A stretch of DNA of 48,936 nt, from contig JAFYVM010000017.1 in assembly GCA_017549145.1 (NCBI GenBank), positions 1-48,936 on the forward strand, in the 5' to 3' direction. The notes beneath the pieces were generated by a model, which searched no databases, was not told the DNA's origin, and was given only the letters and a program-made list of their open reading frames with translations. This DNA comes from Bacteroidales bacterium (GTDB lineage Bacteria > Bacteroidota > Bacteroidia > Bacteroidales > UBA932). Positions 39,036 through 48,609 of the stretch are shown one piece after another (positions within the stretch are counted from its first letter, which is position 1; each line of letters opens with the position of its first letter). A program made the position numbers and the translations under genes.

Positions 39036-39049
39036 ATGGAATATACATT
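38983..39049 (+). promoter_or_regulatory. Candidate HipB operators: two 25-bp direct repeats
   Basis: Copies at 38983-39007 and 39025-39049 match at 21 of 25 positions and share TATGGAATATA. They are 42 bp apart start to start, almost exactly four helical turns. The second covers the hipB start codon (39036). This fits cooperative autorepression by a dimeric XRE protein. Confidence 0.5.
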
Positions 39050-39347
39050 AGATATTTACTCAAAGCAGCCGGAGCAGTTGATGAAGAAAATGGCTCAAAA
39101 CTGTAAGGCCCGAAGGTTGGAGAGAGGATATAGCCGTAGGACGCTCGCCCAGAAGACGGGCGTCCCGGCTCCTACAATCGAGAGATTTGAGACGACCGGC
39201 AAGATATCCTTCGAATCTTTTTGTGCCATTGTCGTGGAGTTTGACTATTTCCAGGAAATGTCGGAAATACTCTCCAAACCGAAATATTCGACAGGTAGCG
39301 AGCTGGAAACTATCAATAAAAACAAAAAAAGAGTTAAGGGAAGATGA
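39036..39347 (+). CDS. HipB-type XRE-family antitoxin/repressor
   Basis: The 103-residue DNA-binding protein has an XRE/Cro helix-turn-helix at about 20-80 (RLERGYSRRTLAQKTGVPAPTIERFETTGKI split by the helices) and a basic C-terminal tail. Such proteins bind and neutralise HipA kinase and repress their own operon. Its stop codon overlaps the hipA start by 4 nt (ATGA), which is typical of hipBA pairs. Candidate operators lie over its promoter and start codon. Confidence 0.85.
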   Translation: MEYTLDIYSKQPEQLMKKMAQNCKARRLERGYSRRTLAQKTGVPAPTIERFETTGKISFESFCAIVVEFDYFQEMSEILSKPKYSTGSELETINKNKKRVKGR

Positions 39348-40468
39348 TAACACAGGTGGATAAGATAATCGTTTATCATAACGAGGATTTGGTAGGAACG
39401 CTTCAGATGACTCCAGACGGGAAGTCTTGCGTGTTTGAGTATTCTCAGCAGTGGCTGAGAGATGGCTTTGCCCTGTCTCCTCTTGAGCTGCCGCTCTCGT
39501 CTGATCTGTTGTACGCACAACCGGATAAGTTTGATGGAAACTTTGCGGTGTTTGAGGACAGTATGCCTGATGGGTATGGATTATATCTTATAGACAGGAT
39601 GCTCCGCAAGGAAGGATTTCAACTTAAGAATTTGACACCGCTCCAGCGTCTGGCTATTGTCGGCTCATCTGGCATGGGAGCTCTTCGCTATGAACCATAT
39701 ATCGAACTGGACAAGTCAGACATGAAGGTGTCTATGGATCAGTTGGATGAAGTGCAGCAGAAGGCGTTGGATATACTGTCTGAAAAAGATGAAGGCGATG
39801 AATCGTTGCTCTACTACAACAGTGCAAACTCCGGTGGTGCCAGACCTAAGGTAGTGATGGCTGATTCACAGGGAACCCATTGGCTAATTAAGTTCAGACA
39901 TACCTATGATTCTGCCGAGATTGGACGTGAAGAATATCTTTACATGAGTGTAGCCTCTGAGTGCGGTATCAATGTCCCCCAAATTAAGCTTCTTAAGGAC
40001 AAGTACTTCGCCATTGAAAGGTTTGACCTGGAGAATGCAAAAGGAATACATGTCGTCACTGCTGCCGCTCTGTTGCAGACTGATTTTAGGAATCAGGATG
40101 TCGATTACACGAACCTCCTGGCGTTGACAGGATACCTCACCCAGGATCCGGCACAAGTAGAGGAGATGTATCGCAGAATGGTATTTAACCTGGTATGCGA
40201 CAACAAGGACGACCATGCAAAGAATTTCAGCTTCATGTGTCGCAATGGACAGTGGACTCTTGCGCCCGCCTATGATATAACCTATTCTCCTAAAGGTTCG
40301 AATGGTCAGCATGCTACATCTCTCTACTTCAGCGGAAATCCTACAAGGGAAGAGGTAATAAAAGCTGGCATGCAGATCCGAATACCAAAGAATACATGTG
40401 AGGAGATTATAGATACCGTGCAGACAATATGTCAGCAGAAACTGCCTGTATCCGTAATACTGAAATAG
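39344..40468 (+). CDS. HipA-family serine/threonine kinase toxin
   Basis: HipA in E. coli phosphorylates glutamyl-tRNA synthetase and induces persistence. This 374-residue protein has the N-subdomain (about 1-110, LSPLELPLSSDLL; NFAVFEDSMPDGYG) and the kinase core. The phosphate loop is NSGGARPK (162-169), with Ser163 a candidate autophosphorylation site. The catalytic motif NKDDHAKN (287-294) places Asp289 as base, and LAPAYDI gives the metal-binding Asp311. All key residues are present, so it looks active. It is shorter than E. coli HipA (440). The target is unknown and may differ. Confidence 0.88.
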   Translation: MITQVDKIIVYHNEDLVGTLQMTPDGKSCVFEYSQQWLRDGFALSPLELPLSSDLLYAQPDKFDGNFAVFEDSMPDGYGLYLIDRMLRKEGFQLKNLTPLQRLAIVGSSGMGALRYEPYIELDKSDMKVSMDQLDEVQQKALDILSEKDEGDESLLYYNSANSGGARPKVVMADSQGTHWLIKFRHTYDSAEIGREEYLYMSVASECGINVPQIKLLKDKYFAIERFDLENAKGIHVVTAAALLQTDFRNQDVDYTNLLALTGYLTQDPAQVEEMYRRMVFNLVCDNKDDHAKNFSFMCRNGQWTLAPAYDITYSPKGSNGQHATSLYFSGNPTREEVIKAGMQIRIPKNTCEEIIDTVQTICQQKLPVSVILK

Positions 40469-40798: not shown

Positions 40799-41785
40799 TT
40801 ATCTAATATTCTTAAGCCACTGCTCAAGAGCGTTATAGAACTCTTTTCTATGAGCACCCAGCTTGTCATTTCCCTTGCCTGCCACATTCTCCGATGAGAA
40901 TCCCCAGCCATGACCTCCAGATTTCCAGATATGCATTTCAGCAGAAACCTTGTGAGAGACAAGGCTTTTGTAATATATGAGACTATTCTCAACAACTGTC
41001 TTGTCGTTGGTGCAATGTGAAATGAAAGTTTGAGGAGTCTCAGCTGTCACTTGCTTTTCCAAAGAATAGTACTCGACGAGCTCATTCAATTTAGCCTCAT
41101 TTCCCGCCCATTTTTCATCCTTACCAATAAGGCCTGGACGAGTTCCGCTACGATATACATTATAGTCAAATGAGATCACTGGGTAGATAAGTATTGAGAA
41201 ATCTGGTTTAGTCGCAGCATCTACATAGTGATTAGAAGCGCAAGCTGCAAGGTGTCCACCTGCAGAAAAACCGATTACTCCTATCTGTTTGATCTTCCAC
41301 TCCTCAGCATGTGCACGGCAATATCTGAAAGCATTGTGTACGTCTTCGAGTGGGACATTCCAATGTCCATTAGGAATGCGGTGTTTTACTACAGCCACAG
41401 CTATACCTTTGGATAGCATCCAGTCAGCAACATGCTGTCCTTCTCCATAGGTAGAGAGTTTGACATAACCTCCACCTGGACATACGACCACCATCTGTCC
41501 ATTTGGCTTTTTAGGGAAATACAAGTCAACTCTTGCAAGATCTGAAACATTTCTAAGAATTCCCTTCTCATTTATTGTTTCAGGGCCTGTAAGACCATTG
41601 GATTCCTGCATCTTGAATCCACCGCAGATGATCTCTTTACCATATACCGGGTCAACATTTCCCTCAAAGGAATCTGTATAGAGAAGAACGGTCTGAGCTG
41701 GTTTCAGTCCTTTTACCTGCTGTGCATTTGCGAAAATTGGCGCAAGAATCAGGATGCTTGCCAGAGAAATGATAAGCTTTTTCAT
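40799..41785 (-). CDS. Secreted alpha/beta-hydrolase (acetyl-xylan esterase-like)
   Basis: The 328-residue protein has a signal peptide (cleavage near ANAQ, residue 22) and the fold of esterases that remove acetyl groups from plant polysaccharides. Motifs: CPGGGY oxyanion loop (102-107), GFSAGG elbow with Ser174, late Asp (CTNDKTV) and His (SGGHGWG). ATG 41785 is used; the TTG six bases earlier is less likely. It follows the 697-residue lipoprotein on the same strand and lies near a GH3 gene, so a role in glycan breakdown is plausible. The polysaccharide is not defined. Confidence 0.8.
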   Translation of the reverse strand: MKKLIISLASILILAPIFANAQQVKGLKPAQTVLLYTDSFEGNVDPVYGKEIICGGFKMQESNGLTGPETINEKGILRNVSDLARVDLYFPKKPNGQMVVVCPGGGYVKLSTYGEGQHVADWMLSKGIAVAVVKHRIPNGHWNVPLEDVHNAFRYCRAHAEEWKIKQIGVIGFSAGGHLAACASNHYVDAATKPDFSILIYPVISFDYNVYRSGTRPGLIGKDEKWAGNEAKLNELVEYYSLEKQVTAETPQTFISHCTNDKTVVENSLIYYKSLVSHKVSAEMHIWKSGGHGWGFSSENVAGKGNDKLGAHRKEFYNALEQWLKNIR

Positions 41786-41804
41786 ATACAAATTTATTGC
41801 AAGA

Positions 41805-41856: not shown

Positions 41857-43950
41857 CTATTTTGTTGCGAATGTATTACCCTCAGATACAATCTTAGCTC
41901 TTCTTTTTGCAGTATCGCCAAACATGTACATAGCGAAGTTGTCTGCATCGATAGTCACCACCTCATCTGCAGCGCTATATGGACCGATCTTACCACCCGC
42001 CTTACAGTTCTTGACAGTTACAACTTTAGTATTTGGACGTGAAAGGATTATACCCATAGTTGGATTATCGCCACTTCCATCAGCCGAGAATGCACATGAG
42101 AACCAAGTATCAGCAAGGATGGCTCCGTAATTTTCACAATTCTCGATTGTAACAGGGTTTCCTGCCTGTCCAAAAATTCCAGATACACAAGCCACATAAT
42201 CTGTTCCGTTTGCAAACTCACGGATAAAGCATACGTCACCGTTATTTACGCAACCCTTGATTGTAGTATTTGTAGAACCAGCATAAGCAAGAATTCCGGC
42301 TGTACGAGACGACTTGTCAGAAGTTCCACTGACTGTAGAAAGGACATTACCATTATTAGTACAATTCTCGATAATCAGCTTTGAATTTTCAGTTGCTACA
42401 ATACCTCCCATACGAGGAGCATCACCCCAGAATTCATCACCTACCATACCTCCAAGTTCAGCGTTGTTTGTACAATTCTTAGCAAACGACGCACCCTGGC
42501 AGTAGCCAAAGATTCCACCTAACTGGTAAGCATTACCGCCATTATGAGTATTCACTGAATTCTGAACTCTTACAGGACAGTTGTTGACACAGCCATCAAC
42601 AGTCGAAGCTCCTACAAGGCCGACAATACCTCCCAGGTTGTTACGTACTGTACCTTCTACAGTCTGCTTTGAAGCGATCATTGCCTGGTCGTTTGCTGCG
42701 AGTACAGTACAATTGAGGATTGTTGATTCATTGCATGCAGCACCAGCGATACCACCGAGGCTGAACTCAAGCGCAGGACACTCGGTATAGATCTTTGCAA
42801 CTTCTACAGTAAGGTTCTTTACTGTAGCTCCGCTAAGTGCACCAAAGAAACCAAGTGTCGAACATGTAGGCAATGTAGTACCATCAGGTGTATATGTCAA
42901 GCCTGTAACCTTGTGTCCGTCACCATTAAATATTCCTGTGAATGCAGGAGCAGATCCAGTCTGAAGAGCACCAGTACGGTCAATACAAGCATTACCGATA
43001 GGAACCCATGTCTTGCCAGTAAGATCTACATCAGCAAGAAGCTTGATTTCGCCGTTCTCATCTGTCCAACGAGAAAGGTCTGCACCAGTATTGACAGCTG
43101 CAGCAAAAGCCATCAGTTCATTAACATTTGTAATACCACCAAGAGCTTCCTGCTTGCCAAGAGTACCAAGGTTATAGATCTTGTTTGGAGCAAGAGTTAC
43201 CTCTTCTGTGGTCTTCACACCTTCACCATCGAACTGGAGTGTAAGTGTAGCTGCTTCGCTGTTAGGAATAGCAGTAATATAGTATGTCTTACCAACCTCG
43301 AATGGTCCATCAAGAGTAATTTCTGAAGCATCTCCCTCGTTGATGACAGCATTGTTTACTACATCATACTTATAAGATCCGGCAATCTTCTTGCCTCCGT
43401 CATTGATAAGCTTGACAGAAGAAGGAGCAGTCTCTCCACCTACAGTAAACTTAACAAGGCAGTGAATATTATTGAATACAAGATCAGTACTTCCTTCAGA
43501 CTTTGGAGTACCAACTGCTGCTGCAACTGTCGGGTCATAGCTTCCAGCTACTGCAGTCTGTGTACTTGCAACAGAGAAATTAGTAACAACTCCATTCTCA
43601 TATACCTGTACACCTGAACGATCAGGATATACTGCAAGAAGTTCAGCTGGTACTGAGAATTCAGCGTTATTGGTAAACTTGGCAGATGGTGCCTTTTCTG
43701 TAATGGCAGTACTGAATGCAACAGGTTGACCAGCAGCATTAAATACTGTTATCTTGTCGCCAGGAGTCCAATATGAAACATTTCCCTCCAGAACAGTCTT
43801 TGCGTCAGTAGAAGCGAACGCTGTAACTGTGAACTTCTCACTAGCGTCATTAAGATTTCCGTTTACCAGTTCCTTCTGGCAAGATGTAGCTGAAAGAATT
43901 GCAACAGCTACAAGAACAAATGAATAAAACTTTTTCATGATCTTGAACAT
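41857..43950 (-). CDS. Fimbrillin-like lipoprotein with GLUG-like repeats
   Basis: The 697-residue protein (693 if ATG 43938 is used) has a lipoprotein signal with lipobox SATSC, a fimbrillin-like N-terminal region (about 30-270: KTVLEGNVSYWTPGDKITVF, LLAVYPDRS, FNNIHCLVKFTV, KIYNLGTLG), and a C-terminal half with about seven repeats of GGI(A/V/F)G...NCxNNG type, GLUG-like beta-helical units. This suggests a surface or fimbria-like adhesin. It is encoded 9 nt after the 39-codon peptide gene and shares its N-terminal domain type with the lipoprotein at 46729. Confidence 0.75.
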   Translation of the reverse strand: MFKIMKKFYSFVLVAVAILSATSCQKELVNGNLNDASEKFTVTAFASTDAKTVLEGNVSYWTPGDKITVFNAAGQPVAFSTAITEKAPSAKFTNNAEFSVPAELLAVYPDRSGVQVYENGVVTNFSVASTQTAVAGSYDPTVAAAVGTPKSEGSTDLVFNNIHCLVKFTVGGETAPSSVKLINDGGKKIAGSYKYDVVNNAVINEGDASEITLDGPFEVGKTYYITAIPNSEAATLTLQFDGEGVKTTEEVTLAPNKIYNLGTLGKQEALGGITNVNELMAFAAAVNTGADLSRWTDENGEIKLLADVDLTGKTWVPIGNACIDRTGALQTGSAPAFTGIFNGDGHKVTGLTYTPDGTTLPTCSTLGFFGALSGATVKNLTVEVAKIYTECPALEFSLGGIAGAACNESTILNCTVLAANDQAMIASKQTVEGTVRNNLGGIVGLVGASTVDGCVNNCPVRVQNSVNTHNGGNAYQLGGIFGYCQGASFAKNCTNNAELGGMVGDEFWGDAPRMGGIVATENSKLIIENCTNNGNVLSTVSGTSDKSSRTAGILAYAGSTNTTIKGCVNNGDVCFIREFANGTDYVACVSGIFGQAGNPVTIENCENYGAILADTWFSCAFSADGSGDNPTMGIILSRPNTKVVTVKNCKAGGKIGPYSAADEVVTIDADNFAMYMFGDTAKRRAKIVSEGNTFATK

Positions 43951-43959
43951 TTAAGCTGT

Positions 43960-44079
43960 TTATAATACCTCTTCTTCATCATAAGGATTGAAAGAACCAT
44001 TGTCGCTCTGGCAGAGAACGCCTTCAACCTCACAGTCTATACATTCCAAGACTGGAGCAGAATAGAATTTTGTCTCCAT
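43960..44079 (-). CDS. 39-residue small peptide A (EGxLCxS family)
   Basis: The open frame from ATG 44079 to TAA 43960 encodes a small acidic peptide. Its first 25 residues align without gaps to peptide B at 46574 (10 identities). Shared features are M-E-x3-Y-x2-P-V at positions 1-10 and E-G-V-L-C-Q-S at 19-25, with an acidic end (YDEEEVL). Three Cys occur (13, 16, 23). A TATATTTG promoter box lies upstream and the fimbrillin-like lipoprotein starts 9 nt downstream. There is no signal peptide. The function is unknown: a cytosolic regulator, an assembly factor or a processed peptide are all possible. Confidence 0.7.
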   Translation of the reverse strand: METKFYSAPVLECIDCEVEGVLCQSDNGSFNPYDEEEVL

Positions 44080-44152
44080 TGTTATTTGTTTTGATTATTA
44101 ATTATATGTACTTCTGCGAATATGACAGTAGCAGACAAAACTGCCACCTTGA

Positions 44153-44183
44153 CAAATATAGTGATTTATATCGTTCTGAGCAA
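44153..44183 (-). promoter_or_regulatory. Promoter of the peptide A-lipoprotein operon
   Basis: On the minus strand, TTG (44181-44183), a 20-bp spacer and TATATTTG (44153-44160). The leader is about 65 nt before the peptide ATG at 44079. Confidence 0.65.
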
Positions 44184-44333
44184 CTACCAACAAACCATCA
44201 CCATCTGACAGATCAGATTCCGGCGTACACGCAGCTAGAATACAAAGCGAAAAAAGAAGGTATAAAAGTAACATTAAGTTTTATATTTAGGTCTAAAAAA
44301 ATTATATTTAGCGCAAAATAGAAAACAATTTAT

Positions 44334-46496
44334 ATGAAAAGATTTTCAATCTGCATCCTTGCATGCGCACTAACACTACCGCTGATAACAGCATTCTCAC
44401 CTGCACTAGATGAATCTGAGACAAAGAAGAGTCAATTTATTGAGGAACTGCTTTCAAAAATGACATTGGAAGAGAAAATTGGTCAGTTGAATCTCATCAG
44501 CTCTCCAGGAGATGTGGTGACAGGACCTAAAAAGGGTGAGGACCTCACAAATGACATCAGGAGCGGTCGCCTTGGTAATGTTCTTAATGCTATCGGAATT
44601 GACTATATCCGCAGTCTCCAGCGCATTGCAGTGGAGGAAAGCCGCCTCGGCATTCCGCTCACTTTCGCCTTCGACGAAATTCATGGTTACAGAACCACAT
44701 TCCCGATTCCCCTTGCAGAGAGTTGCACCTGGGATCCCGAGCTAATATCAAGATGCGCCCAGGCAGGAGCGCAGGAAGCCGCAGCCGATGGATTGACCCT
44801 CACATATAATCCTATGGTTGACATTGCCCTCGATCCACGTTGGGGACGAATCAGCGAAGGCGCAGGAGAAGACCCATACCTCGGTTCCCTTATCGCTGCA
44901 GCACGAGTACGTGGCGTCCAGGGAGAAGATTTGTCTGACCCTCTAACTATTGCAGCATGTCTTAAGCATTACGCAGCATATGGCGGAGCGGAAGGCGGAC
45001 GAGACTACGCAGCTGTTGAAATGGGCGAAAGACGCCTTCGCGAGCACTACCTTCCTCCATACAAAGCAGCTGTAGAAGCAGGAGTGGCCAGTGTAATGAC
45101 TTCTTTCAACCTATACGACGGCATCCCGGCCACAATGAACAAATTCCTAGTGGATCAGGTTCTCCGCACTGAATGGGGATTCAAAGGAGTTGTTATGACA
45201 GATTATGGTTCAATCGGTGAAATCCTCGAGCACGGATGCGCAGAAACAATAGCTGAGGCTTCACGCCTATCACTTGAGGCAGGAACAGATATGGACATGT
45301 GCTCAGGAGCATACATTCAGGAACTTAAAGGCCTAGTTGAGTCTGGAGCAGTGGATGTAAAACTGATCGATGACGCATGCCGCAGAGTACTTCAGCTTAA
45401 ATACGATCTAGGTCTATTTGAGGATCCATATCGCTACCTTAACCACAAAAGAGCAGAAAAGATTATCTACAGCAAGGAGAACATCGCACTCAGCAAGCTG
45501 GAAGCCGTCAAATCTATGGTTCTTCTAAAGAATGATAGCGAAGTACTTCCTCTAAAGAAAAGCGAAAAAATCGCCCTTATAGGCCCTCGTTGCGAGGATA
45601 CGCGTTCATACTGCGGAGCATGGGCAGGCAAATGTGAGCCGAATCGCATACAATCAATCGCTGATAGATTTGCCAAAGCAAACATCGTATCACCAGAAGA
45701 GGCTGACAAGATTGTCTGCGTACTAGGTGAAACTCATAGAATGTCGGGAGAAGCAGCATGTTTGACAGACATCCGCATCCCTGCAGATCAACGCGAACTA
45801 CTCGAAAAGATGTGTGCCCTCGGCAAGCCAGTGGTACTGGTAGTCATGGCAGGAAGACCGCTTGACCTGACCCGTGAAAGTGAAATCGCATCATCAATAC
45901 TTATGGCATGGCAGCCAGGCTTCAAGACAGCAGACGCTCTATATGACATCCTATACGGAGCAGAGAATCCTTCAGGCCGACTTACCACCAGCTTTCCACG
46001 CAATGTAGGCCAGATTCCAGTATATCACTATATGCTCAATACCGGACGTCCAGCAACAGATGGTAAAAACGAGAGATACACCTCGAGATATCTTGATTGT
46101 TGGAATGCCCCTCTCTATCCGTTCGGATATGGACTGAGCTACACTCAGTTTGAGTACTCAGATGTTACACTCAGCGGCACTGAGATGGATGCCAATGGCA
46201 GCATCACAGCTACAGTTACTGTAAGGAACACAGGAAAGGTTGCAGGAGACGAAGTGGTTCAGCTCTATCTACGAGACATGGTAGGTAGCGTTTCACGACC
46301 TGTAAAGCAGCTTAAGGGATTTGAGAAGATCAGCCTTAAACCAGGAGAGAGCCAAACAGTTGACTTTGAGATAAATGAGGAAATGCTCCGCTTCTGGAGA
46401 GCAGACATGACATATGGAAGCGAGAAAGGAGAATTTGTTGTGATGGTAGGTCCGAATGCATCCATTACCAAAGGGGTAAATTTCTGGTTAAAATAG
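44334..46496 (+). CDS. bglX: GH3 beta-glucosidase
   Basis: This 720-residue periplasmic or secreted glycoside hydrolase family 3 enzyme releases terminal beta-linked sugars by a retaining mechanism. A signal peptide covers about 1-22. The (alpha/beta)8 domain has the KH motif (CLKHYAAYG) and the nucleophile Asp290 in VVMTDYG. The alpha/beta sandwich follows, then a fibronectin-III-like C-terminal domain starting near PFGYGLSYTQFEYS. Length and motifs match BglX; sugar specificity (glucose versus xylose) cannot be fixed. Two TTATATTTAG near-promoter boxes precede it. It may cooperate with the esterase nearby. Confidence 0.9.
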   Translation: MKRFSICILACALTLPLITAFSPALDESETKKSQFIEELLSKMTLEEKIGQLNLISSPGDVVTGPKKGEDLTNDIRSGRLGNVLNAIGIDYIRSLQRIAVEESRLGIPLTFAFDEIHGYRTTFPIPLAESCTWDPELISRCAQAGAQEAAADGLTLTYNPMVDIALDPRWGRISEGAGEDPYLGSLIAAARVRGVQGEDLSDPLTIAACLKHYAAYGGAEGGRDYAAVEMGERRLREHYLPPYKAAVEAGVASVMTSFNLYDGIPATMNKFLVDQVLRTEWGFKGVVMTDYGSIGEILEHGCAETIAEASRLSLEAGTDMDMCSGAYIQELKGLVESGAVDVKLIDDACRRVLQLKYDLGLFEDPYRYLNHKRAEKIIYSKENIALSKLEAVKSMVLLKNDSEVLPLKKSEKIALIGPRCEDTRSYCGAWAGKCEPNRIQSIADRFAKANIVSPEEADKIVCVLGETHRMSGEAACLTDIRIPADQRELLEKMCALGKPVVLVVMAGRPLDLTRESEIASSILMAWQPGFKTADALYDILYGAENPSGRLTTSFPRNVGQIPVYHYMLNTGRPATDGKNERYTSRYLDCWNAPLYPFGYGLSYTQFEYSDVTLSGTEMDANGSITATVTVRNTGKVAGDEVVQLYLRDMVGSVSRPVKQLKGFEKISLKPGESQTVDFEINEEMLRFWRADMTYGSEKGEFVVMVGPNASITKGVNFWLK

Positions 46497-46518
46497 GCTT
46501 TTAAAAGAAAAAAAATGC

Positions 46519-46526
46519 TACCTTTG
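46519..46526 (+). promoter_or_regulatory. Bacteroidota -7 box for the peptide B-lipoprotein operon
   Basis: TACCTTTG at 46519-46526, 47 nt before the peptide B start codon and 22 nt after the bglX stop. It gives the small-peptide module its own promoter. Confidence 0.6.
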
Positions 46527-46573
46527 CCAGCTCATTTTAGAAAACAGATTTTTAACCAAAATATTCATTAAGA

Positions 46574-46714
46574 ATGGAAATTCAGTATTACGAGTCTCCT
46601 GTATGCCTTGTTATGGAGATTGCACACGAAGGCTTGCTCTGCACGAGCGGATTAAACGGCGGTTTTGGCCACGATGGAATCGGTGGTAACGACGACGACA
46701 TTTTCAACAATTAA
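46574..46714 (+). CDS. 46-residue small peptide B (EGxLCxS family)
   Basis: The frame from ATG 46574 to TAA 46714 encodes a peptide aligned to peptide A over residues 1-25: shared M1, E2, Y6, P9, V10, E19, G20, L22, C23 and S25. The tail is Gly-rich and acidic (NGGFGHDGIGGNDDD). It has two Cys (11, 23). The fimbrillin-like lipoprotein starts 14 nt downstream, the same order as in the peptide A locus. Conservation between two loci that differ in nucleotide sequence is good evidence that both are real genes. The function is unknown. Confidence 0.75.
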   Translation: MEIQYYESPVCLVMEIAHEGLLCTSGLNGGFGHDGIGGNDDDIFNN

Positions 46715-46728
46715 TTCCTGGAGACAAT

Positions 46729-48609
46729 ATGAGAACAATTATCAGAACTATACTAGCATCTGCTGTATGCATGATTGCCGCATCTTGTCTTAAGGATGCA
46801 TCATTTGAATCTGGCAAGCAGAATCTTAGCGAGCCACTTACTATTTCAACAGAAACACAGACAAAGACATCGCTTAACGGAAGTGAAGTACACTGGAGTT
46901 CAGATGATGTGGTTGCAATATTTGATAACAGCAACACAAAGAACAGATTCCAGGCAGTTTCTACAAACGGAAACAATGCAGAATTTTCAGGCGAAGTCAC
47001 ATCTGGAACCACTATGATCTATGCTGTATATCCATACGATTTGGCTAATTCGGCAAATGGCAGCATCTTGAATGTAACAATTCCAGTAGAACAGACATCA
47101 AAAGAGGGTTCATTTGCAGAGGAGCATAATATATCTGTCGCAAAGGCAGTAAAGACTCCTGGCGTTGAAGCTATTGAAGGCATCACATTCAAAAACGTAT
47201 GTGCACTTCTTAAGTTCACTGTTCCAGCATACCTTACAGATGTAACAAAGGTTACCTTGTCCAGCAATAGTGTCATTGCCGGAGATATGGTAATTGATTA
47301 CAGCGAAGAGAATCCTACATGCACAATGTCAGCTGAAGGCAGCAAGAGCATTTCTATGACAGGTGCATACGCCGCAGAAAGCACATTCTGGTTCGTACTC
47401 GCTCCAGGCACACTTGACGGCATCAATGTAAATGTAGAAACCAGCAAAGGTACATACTCGATGTCATCAGATAATCAGTTCGAGATGACAGCTGGAAATT
47501 ACAGAAACCTCGGTACCCTAGAACTTAAAAAGGTACAGGTAACTTCTGCTACAGCAGCACACACATACAGAGAAGGCGTCCTCACAGGAACACAGGTTAA
47601 CGTCAACCTTGGCATCGACCAGACAACAGCATCATATATCACAGCAGTGAGCCTTCAGATCAAGAACGCAGAGGGTACAGTTCTCCGCACATTGACTTTG
47701 GATTCAACTGCAGAAAGTGTTGTTATGCCAGCTGAGGGTTCATGGCCATATCTTCCTAAGGGAGACTACACTGTATCTGGCGCATACACGCTCTCAGGCG
47801 TGACTGAAAAAACTATCGAGGACATTACGTTCAGCGTGACTGAGTCCCCTGTATTCGAGATGACTGCAACTACTCCATATACTTCATACGACAAGTATCT
47901 TGCAGGAGACGCAGCCGGCGCCAATAGCCTTGACGGTTCTACTATCTACAATGTAGGCGCGACTGTATCAGTTTCAGATGCAATCCTTAATAACGCCAAT
48001 TACCCATCATTGTCAATCACCGACAACGATGCCCAGGTATCTGCAGGCAACCTCACAGGTCGTTCATGGGGCAAGCACACTATCAAGGCATCTTATACAC
48101 TTGATGGTGTTACAGCTTCAAGCGAGGCTTCTGTTGACGTCACAGGTCTTCCTTACAGCCATACATTCTATGATAACGAAGATAGTACAAACAGCACATG
48201 GACTTGCAAGAGCATACAATACACAATCAGCAAATGCGCTATCTTCTATGATGGAACATATGGATACATGTTTTCACCAAAATTCAATATTCCATCAGCA
48301 GGTGCTAAGATCTCCTATACTATAGGAGCAAGATTCTACATGCCAAAGGCATTCAATGCCAGCAAAGAGACATGTGAACTTTACGTTGGTGCCACTTCCA
48401 ACAACACAACGCCGACAACAACAAATAAGCACACTTTCAACGGAAATAATAGCACAAATAGCTCACATGACTCATGCGCAGGAAACCTTGACCTCAGCGC
48501 TGGTACACCTTATGTTTCATTAGATAGTAATGACAAGAATTACTCAACCACCTTGAATGTGCCTGAGTACCTTTGGTTGCATAATATATCTATCAAATAC
48601 AGAAATTAG
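46729..48609 (+). CDS. Fimbrillin-like surface lipoprotein
   Basis: The 626-residue protein has a lipoprotein signal (lipobox AASC, Cys20) and a fimbrillin-like N-terminal domain (about 35-270: KTSLNGSEVHWSSDDVVAIF, YAVYPYDLA, FKNVCALLKFTV, YRNLGTLEL) matching motif by motif the lipoprotein at 41857-43950. The C-terminal 350 residues are different: two immunoglobulin-like beta domains (about 280-475) and a Ser/Thr/Asn-rich terminal domain with a final YLWLHNISIKY. It is probably surface-exposed. The partner gene is peptide B, 14 nt upstream. Confidence 0.75.
   Translation: MRTIIRTILASAVCMIAASCLKDASFESGKQNLSEPLTISTETQTKTSLNGSEVHWSSDDVVAIFDNSNTKNRFQAVSTNGNNAEFSGEVTSGTTMIYAVYPYDLANSANGSILNVTIPVEQTSKEGSFAEEHNISVAKAVKTPGVEAIEGITFKNVCALLKFTVPAYLTDVTKVTLSSNSVIAGDMVIDYSEENPTCTMSAEGSKSISMTGAYAAESTFWFVLAPGTLDGINVNVETSKGTYSMSSDNQFEMTAGNYRNLGTLELKKVQVTSATAAHTYREGVLTGTQVNVNLGIDQTTASYITAVSLQIKNAEGTVLRTLTLDSTAESVVMPAEGSWPYLPKGDYTVSGAYTLSGVTEKTIEDITFSVTESPVFEMTATTPYTSYDKYLAGDAAGANSLDGSTIYNVGATVSVSDAILNNANYPSLSITDNDAQVSAGNLTGRSWGKHTIKASYTLDGVTASSEASVDVTGLPYSHTFYDNEDSTNSTWTCKSIQYTISKCAIFYDGTYGYMFSPKFNIPSAGAKISYTIGARFYMPKAFNASKETCELYVGATSNNTTPTTTNKHTFNGNNSTNSSHDSCAGNLDLSAGTPYVSLDSNDKNYSTTLNVPEYLWLHNISIKYRN

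Follow-up and report, generated by a model that had tools for sequence, protein, structure and literature searches.

Small peptides encoded beside fimbrillin-like lipoproteins in Bacteroidales as probable precursors of a pathway resembling that of linear polyphosphorylated peptides

Introduction

Linear polyphosphorylated peptides (LPPs) are ribosomally synthesized and post-translationally modified peptides (RiPPs) of Bacillota encoded by lppAKBSDN gene clusters (PMC13381572, Nat Commun 2026). A RiPP recognition element (RRE), LppB, binds the YxxP motif of the precursor, LppS cuts the leader only when LppB is present, and LppK adds several phosphates to Ser3 of the core; these RRE, protease and kinase steps were shown experimentally in Bacillota, and the nucleoside triphosphate (NTP) transferase had no visible effect (PMC13381572). 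Here we examine a 48,936-nucleotide contig of a Bacteroidales bacterium (JAFYVM010000017.1 in assembly GCA_017549145.1; hereafter the window), in which two tiny genes each lie directly upstream of a fimbrillin-like lipoprotein gene. We propose that these genes very probably encode LPP-like RiPP precursors, which would be leader-guided, exported, and processed in trans by a single machinery whose genes lie at other sites in the genome.

The final LPP product and its role are described as unknown (PMC13381572). The same source calls LPPs restricted to Bacillota while describing the peptidase homologues as only mostly from that phylum, and the word stem 'bacteroid' is absent from its main text. 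Split B1/B2 lasso peptides of the paeninodin type are similar in that a discrete RRE binds their YxxP or WxxP leader, and in their HprK-like kinase and nucleotidyltransferase partners (PMC13381572). On the side of the lipoproteins, the nearest described relatives are the type V pilus fimbrillins (Mfa2, Mfa3, Mfa4 and Bacteroides adhesion structures), which share their fold, signal peptide and lipobox cysteine. In the literature searched, a scope that left out most subscription papers and preprints, we found no description of a Bacteroidales version of the LPP system and no paper in which 'fimbrillin' and 'RiPP' occur together; the available portions of PMC10352776, PMC12710340, PMC7533575, PMC10885120 and PMC7470986 do not describe the Bacteroidales gene set.

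Results

Both small genes are present where the original prediction had placed them. Peptide 1 (43960..44079, minus strand) comprises 39 amino acids and a stop codon, peptide 2 (46574..46714, plus strand) 46 amino acids and a stop codon, and both contain Y6, P9, E19-G20, C23 and S25, followed by an acidic tail in the first and a Gly/Asp-rich tail in the second. Ungapped alignment of their first 25 residues gives the 10 identities reported earlier; when the second peptide was shuffled 200,000 times with its Met fixed, 8 shuffles reached at least 10. The putative leader would run to the conserved Ser (codons 1-25; 44005..44079 minus for peptide 1, 46574..46648 plus for peptide 2) and the putative variable core would lie beyond it (43963..44004 minus and 46649..46711 plus). 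No signal peptide was found in the small peptides, and searches of Pfam, NCBIfam and PHROGs matched them to no family.

The lipoprotein downstream of peptide 1 (lipoprotein 1; 41857..43950, minus strand) has 697 amino acids from its first ATG, and that downstream of peptide 2 (lipoprotein 2; 46729..48609, plus strand) has 626. The distance to the lipoprotein ATG is 9 nt in module 1 and 14 nt in module 2, as predicted; it becomes 21 nt in module 1 if lipoprotein 1 begins at a later Met (43938), from which its signal peptide and lipobox Cys are counted. The two proteins are alike in their N-terminal ~170 residues only (blastp, 29% identity, E 4e-11), consistent with the shared N-terminal domain and differing C-terminal parts originally described. 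Both lie below the detection level of Pfam and NCBIfam, and a profile built from the lipoprotein N-termini hit the Bacteroides cell-adhesion protein 4k4k (E 4e-5). A structure model covering residues 1-340 of lipoprotein 2 (pLDDT 78), the N-terminal part of which has the predicted fimbrillin fold, gave 3ufi, 3t2l and 4k4k as its best PDB matches (E 1e-9 to 7e-8, with modest TM-scores), followed by Mfa2 (5nfi), and also matched Mfa3 and Mfa4 with modest TM-scores. These profile and model matches to Bacteroides adhesins and to Mfa2, Mfa3 and Mfa4 support assigning the partner lipoproteins to the fimbrillin superfamily, both in predicted fold and in lipoprotein signal. By pattern and by eye, a signal peptide and a lipobox Cys were found in 33 lipoproteins with an extracted start (34 were tried, one of which was too short).

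The assembly to which the window belongs, as contig C12, measures 2.35 Mb and is 83% complete (genome G000). A profile made from the two peptides recovered six more copies in this genome (E 5e-7 to 0.12); one extra match (E 0.26) was judged false. Profiles of two and then eight peptides brought the number to 10 true copies, and an 11th, more divergent, was spotted upstream of a lipoprotein and then matched by a wider profile of which it is itself a row. In all 11 cases a lipoprotein gene comes next, at 6-28 nt with start codons as chosen by us. A candidate at C49:85699/85678, lacking a Met and with a different neighbour, was set aside. It is mainly this recovery of further copies in the same genome, evidence external to the two modules, that is decisive in showing the small genes to be real. 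Searching in the other direction, a profile of the lipoprotein N-terminus gave 42 matches in G000 at E<=0.01, including 17 with E below 1e-13. Of these strong matches, 11 have a peptide and three have none. The other three come later in a run of same-strand genes, C66:40573 and C19:33946 after a lipoprotein that is itself headed by a peptide, and C52:28855 after another gene. Nine of the 25 weaker matches were inspected, and a peptide of this family was seen in none of the nine.

The pairing extends well beyond this genome. Nineteen of 41 genomes (40 relatives and G000) matched the peptide profile at E<=0.1, and two of the 19 were judged false. From the 77 matches in relatives, 28 loci were examined, of which two (L035, L037) were dropped as not of the kind and one was at a contig edge (contig-edge loci L036 and L291 are left out of all counts); in 24 of the 25 assessable loci a lipoprotein is next. 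The exception, L041, precedes a permease-like gene, presumably MlaE-like. All three G392 loci have the peptide followed by the lipoprotein. Six genomes of other families, with 24 of 37 matches examined and one at a contig edge, show a lipoprotein next in 20 of 23 assessable loci; two of the others (L301 and L302 in G043) lie directly behind type A sorted proteins of the type IX secretion system (T9SS; TIGR04183 above cut-off), and the remaining one has neither kind of neighbour. Further peptides of other-family genomes, L052 and L054, also stand upstream of lipoproteins, L051 (G363) is without such a neighbour, and L053 (G269) precedes a protein with a signal peptide and no lipobox. In 316 genomes sampled from the phylum, only G791, from another order, matched besides the window's own genome, and a lipoprotein follows each of its four peptides. 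A single genome may contain up to 18 matches (15 in G079 and 8 in G350).

A different arrangement prevails in the genus of G135 and G317, where 12 loci were examined from 25 matches. One peptide there is upstream of a lipoprotein, ten are directly behind a secreted-looking protein (about -4 to 36 nt) and one (L064) lies within the frame of such a protein. An NCBIfam scan of eight of these neighbours gave TIGR04183 in none and left six without any match, and so the label 'secreted' rests on their appearance. The prediction of a two-gene module conserved upstream of fimbrillin-like genes was therefore borne out in the window's own genome, in its relatives and in other families, although the secreted-looking neighbours in G135/G317 and the T9SS-sorted ones in G043 show that a fimbrillin partner is not obligatory.

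These arrangements bear on a further idea in the original prediction, namely that the peptide controls the operon. In such a case, translation of the short open reading frame (ORF) would govern the lipoprotein gene through attenuation or ribosome stalling. The close spacing to the lipoprotein gene in G000 and the absence of a signal peptide would suit such a regulatory leader. However, 10 of the 12 G135/G317 peptides are behind and not before their neighbour, one peptide (L147) heads an RRE operon without any lipoprotein, and the family co-occurs with an RRE, as described below. Furthermore, the N-terminus is the conserved end of the peptide and the C-terminus the variable one, whereas stalling motifs are usually at the C-terminus. 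Regulation is therefore not favoured, and we regard it as quite improbable.

To describe the anatomy of the family, we compared 85 peptides. Since the profiles that found them include the motif, and any Ser between Y+16 and Y+22 was accepted, the resulting counts are not an independent test. The pattern is Y-x2-P, a strand, E-G-x-[LI]-[CA]-x-S and an acidic, aromatic tail. All but one of the 85 peptides have the motif Ser, which falls at Y+19 in 63 and at Y+20 in 18. Among these 84, Cys or Ala stands two positions ahead of the Ser in 69, the tail is net negative in 76, a W, F or Y falls within the last eight residues in 82, and the tail has no other Ser in 25. The Tyr and Pro are invariant in alignments A3 (36/36 rows) and A8 (43/43), the rows of which were picked partly by that motif.

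Conservation is concentrated in the leader. Sixteen homologues from G079 and G350 have closely similar leaders (YVKPDFEV...LLxxS) and mostly different tails; judged by sequence, this combination of conserved leader and variable core is the form of RiPP precursors. The pooled Nei-Gojobori ratio of nonsynonymous to synonymous substitution (dN/dS) for these leaders is 0.23, from 120 non-independent pairs in a genus other than that of the window. An identical core is also found behind slightly different leader ends in these two genomes (loci L288-L300), a possible sign that leaders have undergone recombination or gene conversion. For the window copies themselves, a DNA search of 400 same-genus genomes found no close orthologues of the peptides; 13 genomes matched, mostly at the glycoside hydrolase gene between the modules, and only L319 matched peptide 1 and the lipoprotein start, with a peptide that differs much. 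The selection check attached to the original prediction is thus answered indirectly, through another genus. Over-calling of short ORFs is easy, but profile matches across genera with the same type of neighbour, together with the low leader dN/dS, make chance ORFs or functionless repeats extremely improbable.

Because the leader carries a YxxP motif, an RRE was sought. A PqqD-family match (PF05402 above cut-off) is present in 20 of 25 genomes of the genus, including G000, and the RRE matches the PqqD family at E 1e-9. A model of the G000 protein (C22:2491-2757; pLDDT 84) has as its best matches the lasso RREs TbiB1 and TfuB1 bound to leaders, suggesting a discrete RRE of PqqD fold. In six of the eight RRE loci inspected, the RRE is accompanied by an HprK-like kinase, a signal-peptidase-like protease and an ABC (ATP-binding cassette) exporter, and in one of them by a PF14907 nucleotidyltransferase as well; the two exceptions are G000, with a solitary RRE, and a different cluster in G013. 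The latter (L089, G013:C1:480000-497000) was set apart and contains genes that we take to be two asparagine-synthetase-like, one HprK-like, one sulfotransferase-like and one YcaO-like.

All five parts of the machinery are present in G000. Besides the RRE these are a signal-peptidase-like Ser/His protease (C7:53084-53554), an HprK-like kinase (C7:53617-54510), an ABC exporter (C7:54514-56151; ABC_membrane E 3e-32) and a nucleotidyltransferase (C7:47135-48226; PF14907 E 1e-29), the four on C7 being surrounded by what are presumably polysaccharide-synthesis-like genes. The kinase has a P-loop (GKSGTGKS) and an HPr_kinase_C match at E 0.004, below the cut-off. The protease retains SMxPF, HR and GDGN in all six aligned sequences and also in G000, with weak profile matches to LexA and SEC11, and by a simple pattern a protease-like ORF lies within 1.5 kb of the RRE in 16 of 30 loci across the order. 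The motifs point to a SipW-like (Ser/His/Asp) leader peptidase near the RRE, although in G000 it is not beside it.

Peptides and RREs occur in the same genomes. Across 393 Bacteroidales genomes, a peptide (E<=0.05, wide profile) was found in 38, an RRE (E<=1e-5) in 55 and both in 29 (p 4e-21). Excluding 13 genomes, the 12 that supplied profile rows and G363, which had been seen earlier, leaves 25 peptide-positive, 43 RRE-positive and 17 doubly positive genomes of 380 (p 2e-12). These p values are too small, as the genomes are related. At a peptide cut-off of 0.005, chosen after the list had been seen, an RRE accompanies 23 of 26 peptide-positive genomes, and 11 of 13 outside the excluded set.

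Physical linkage is partial. In 5 of 20 diverse RRE neighbourhoods, a motif scan judged by eye found a YxxP peptide within a few kb of the RRE, where a rough guess of chance expectation is ~0.25 (Poisson p 7e-6), and in four of the five the peptide is then followed by a lipoprotein. Peptide and lipoprotein stand amid the machinery genes in L128 (kinase-protease-RRE-nucleotidyltransferase-peptide-lipoprotein), L145 (peptide-lipoprotein-kinase-protease-RRE-nucleotidyltransferase-ABC) and L137, and are linked in L143 as well; the fifth is L147, already mentioned. In G000 the peptides lie outside the machinery gene cluster.

Several observations weigh against tying the peptides to this machinery. 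Nine of the 38 peptide-positive genomes have no RRE match, and no peptide was detected in seven of the 27 genomes whose RRE match is strong. Within the window's genus, where the assemblies compared are 58-98% complete, PqqD is found in 15 of 18 peptide-positive genomes (E<=0.1) and in 5 of 7 peptide-negative ones, that is, with no association. G317 has seven peptide matches, yet no RRE was found in its 89% complete assembly even at E<=10, possibly owing to a missing contig or to another adaptor, and two further genomes with peptide matches have unconvincing RREs (best E 0.8 in G190 and 0.002 in G263). In the best 80 of 545 RRE loci, mostly from herbivore-gut assemblies and taken as near the window's genus, 4832 small ORFs included no peptide match below E 0.2, and so the peptides would here be served in trans. 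The G000 RRE is itself on a contig (C22) apart from the other four parts (C7), the Pfam matches of the protease and kinase are under curated cut-offs, and the leaders end in EGx[LI][CA]x with the Ser at Y+19 or Y+20, which does not fit the LPP consensus. The within-genus result leaves our high confidence in the precursor-machinery reading unchanged, since in that genus the RRE is nearly universal and the assemblies are incomplete. As the peptide family goes with an RRE, a protease, a kinase, a nucleotidyltransferase and an ABC exporter that are encoded at other sites, the module is probably not self-contained. Export by a dedicated route, which the original prediction put forward as a possibility, is its best-supported part.

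Discussion

Compared with LPPs as described in PMC13381572, the Bacteroidales set has the same predicted parts: a discrete RRE, a SipW-like Ser/His peptidase, an HprK-like kinase, an NTP transferase and an MsbA-like exporter. The precursors are alike in their YxxP leader, variable C-terminus and a conserved Ser at a nearly equal distance from the Tyr. LPP clusters are also often found among polysaccharide genes according to that source. The setting on C7 in G000 appears similar. The two systems differ in that the LPP leader follows the consensus YxxPxVLxHQxIxFETxxS, with FET at the leader end and the Ser at Y+18 (PMC13381572). The Bacteroidales set further differs in phylum, in having many precursors per genome, in their location away from the machinery in this genus, and in a partner that is mostly a surface protein. 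As the leader consensus does not hold, the system is, on its sequence features, LPP-like and not a proven or strict member of the LPPs.

The RRE model, with its matches to TbiB1 and TfuB1, also recalls paeninodin-type lasso peptides. We considered the peptide as a lasso precursor and dropped this idea: no macrolactam synthetase or B2 transglutaminase was noticed in the G000 C7 and C22 stretches or among the genes of the RRE operons inspected, a comparison confined to these regions, and by eye the acidic residues have no fixed ring position.

For an LPP-like precursor, the following steps can be envisaged. The RRE would grip the Y-x2-P part of the leader, which would pair with it as an extra beta strand, and the HprK-like kinase would phosphorylate the near-invariant Ser. 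Cleavage by the signal-peptidase-like Ser/His protease would fall inside the [LI]-[CA]-x-S motif or beside it, another group may be attached by the nucleotidyltransferase, and the ABC exporter would carry the acidic core out. The conserved Ser is more likely the phosphate acceptor, given its near-invariance, the 25 of 84 tails without any other Ser and the use of Ser3 as the kinase target in LPPs. Less likely, the C-x-S segment supplies the small residues at -3/-1 of a signal-peptidase site, which would make the Ser the last residue of the leader.

The least certain step is the last, in which we infer that the exported core acts with the surface lipoprotein of the same operon, most likely as a ligand, cap or decoration. 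Such joint action with the adhesin encoded next door is plausible, and we hold this view tentatively. With comparable reserve, we suggest that a single RRE, protease, kinase and exporter could serve dispersed precursors throughout the genome, with phosphorylated acidic cores capping or functionalizing the adjacent adhesin, be it a fimbrillin lipoprotein or a T9SS protein. If true, such a decoration system would give LPP-type RiPPs a general role as dedicated surface-protein partners.

A competing explanation is that the peptides are LPP-like RiPPs that act on other bacteria or as signals, with the lipoprotein serving as the immunity protein or receptor of the producer. It would account for tails far more variable than the leaders in the G079/G350 homologues and for window lipoproteins that differ beyond their N-terminal part, and the histories of LPP and paeninodin genes in Bacilli are read as typical of conflict genes in PMC13381572. 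Against it, the partner has a fimbrillin fold and is elsewhere replaced by a T9SS-sorted or secreted-looking protein. Moreover, the acidic tails are unlike antimicrobial peptides of the cationic type. We consider this explanation unlikely, though the strongest rival to a role alongside the adhesin.

The frequent pairing with exported proteins of two kinds could also mean that the peptide serves the surface protein as a cytoplasmic chaperone or as an export tag, its link to the RRE being incidental. Similar leaders with variable tails, however, are better explained by shared processing machinery than by a chaperone specific to each partner, and a chaperone leaves the protease and exporter unexplained; this possibility appears very slight, marginally below regulation by the short ORF.

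Read as processed precursors, the peptides would be a Bacteroidales counterpart of the LPPs described from Bacillota, with many precursors per genome and a frequent surface-adhesin partner that offers a direct clue to the function of peptides whose role has so far been unknown. The genomes supply many natural leader and core variants for one RRE. This reading also offers an explanation for tiny genes upstream of fimbrillin-like genes that match no Pfam, NCBIfam or PHROGs family.

The original prediction placed each peptide gene behind its own TAnnTTTG promoter. Weak -7-like boxes do exist, TATATTTG (44153..44160, minus strand) 81 nt upstream of peptide 1 and TACCTTTG (46519..46526, plus strand) 55 nt upstream of peptide 2, but the motif alone is weak evidence. 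It occurs 40 times in the window against 30 expected, a number reached in 4 of 100 shuffles, and lies within 150 nt of five of the 11 peptide copies in G000.

Between the two modules lies a family 3 glycoside hydrolase gene (44334-46496, plus strand), and beyond the first module a BD-FAE/alpha-beta-hydrolase esterase-like gene (40799-41791, minus strand). Given these neighbours, the adhesins may belong to a context of carbohydrate use. Farther out, at 39036-40468 (plus strand), a helix-turn-helix (HipB-like) and HipA-like gene pair is a probable toxin-antitoxin system (PF07804 E 1e-47).

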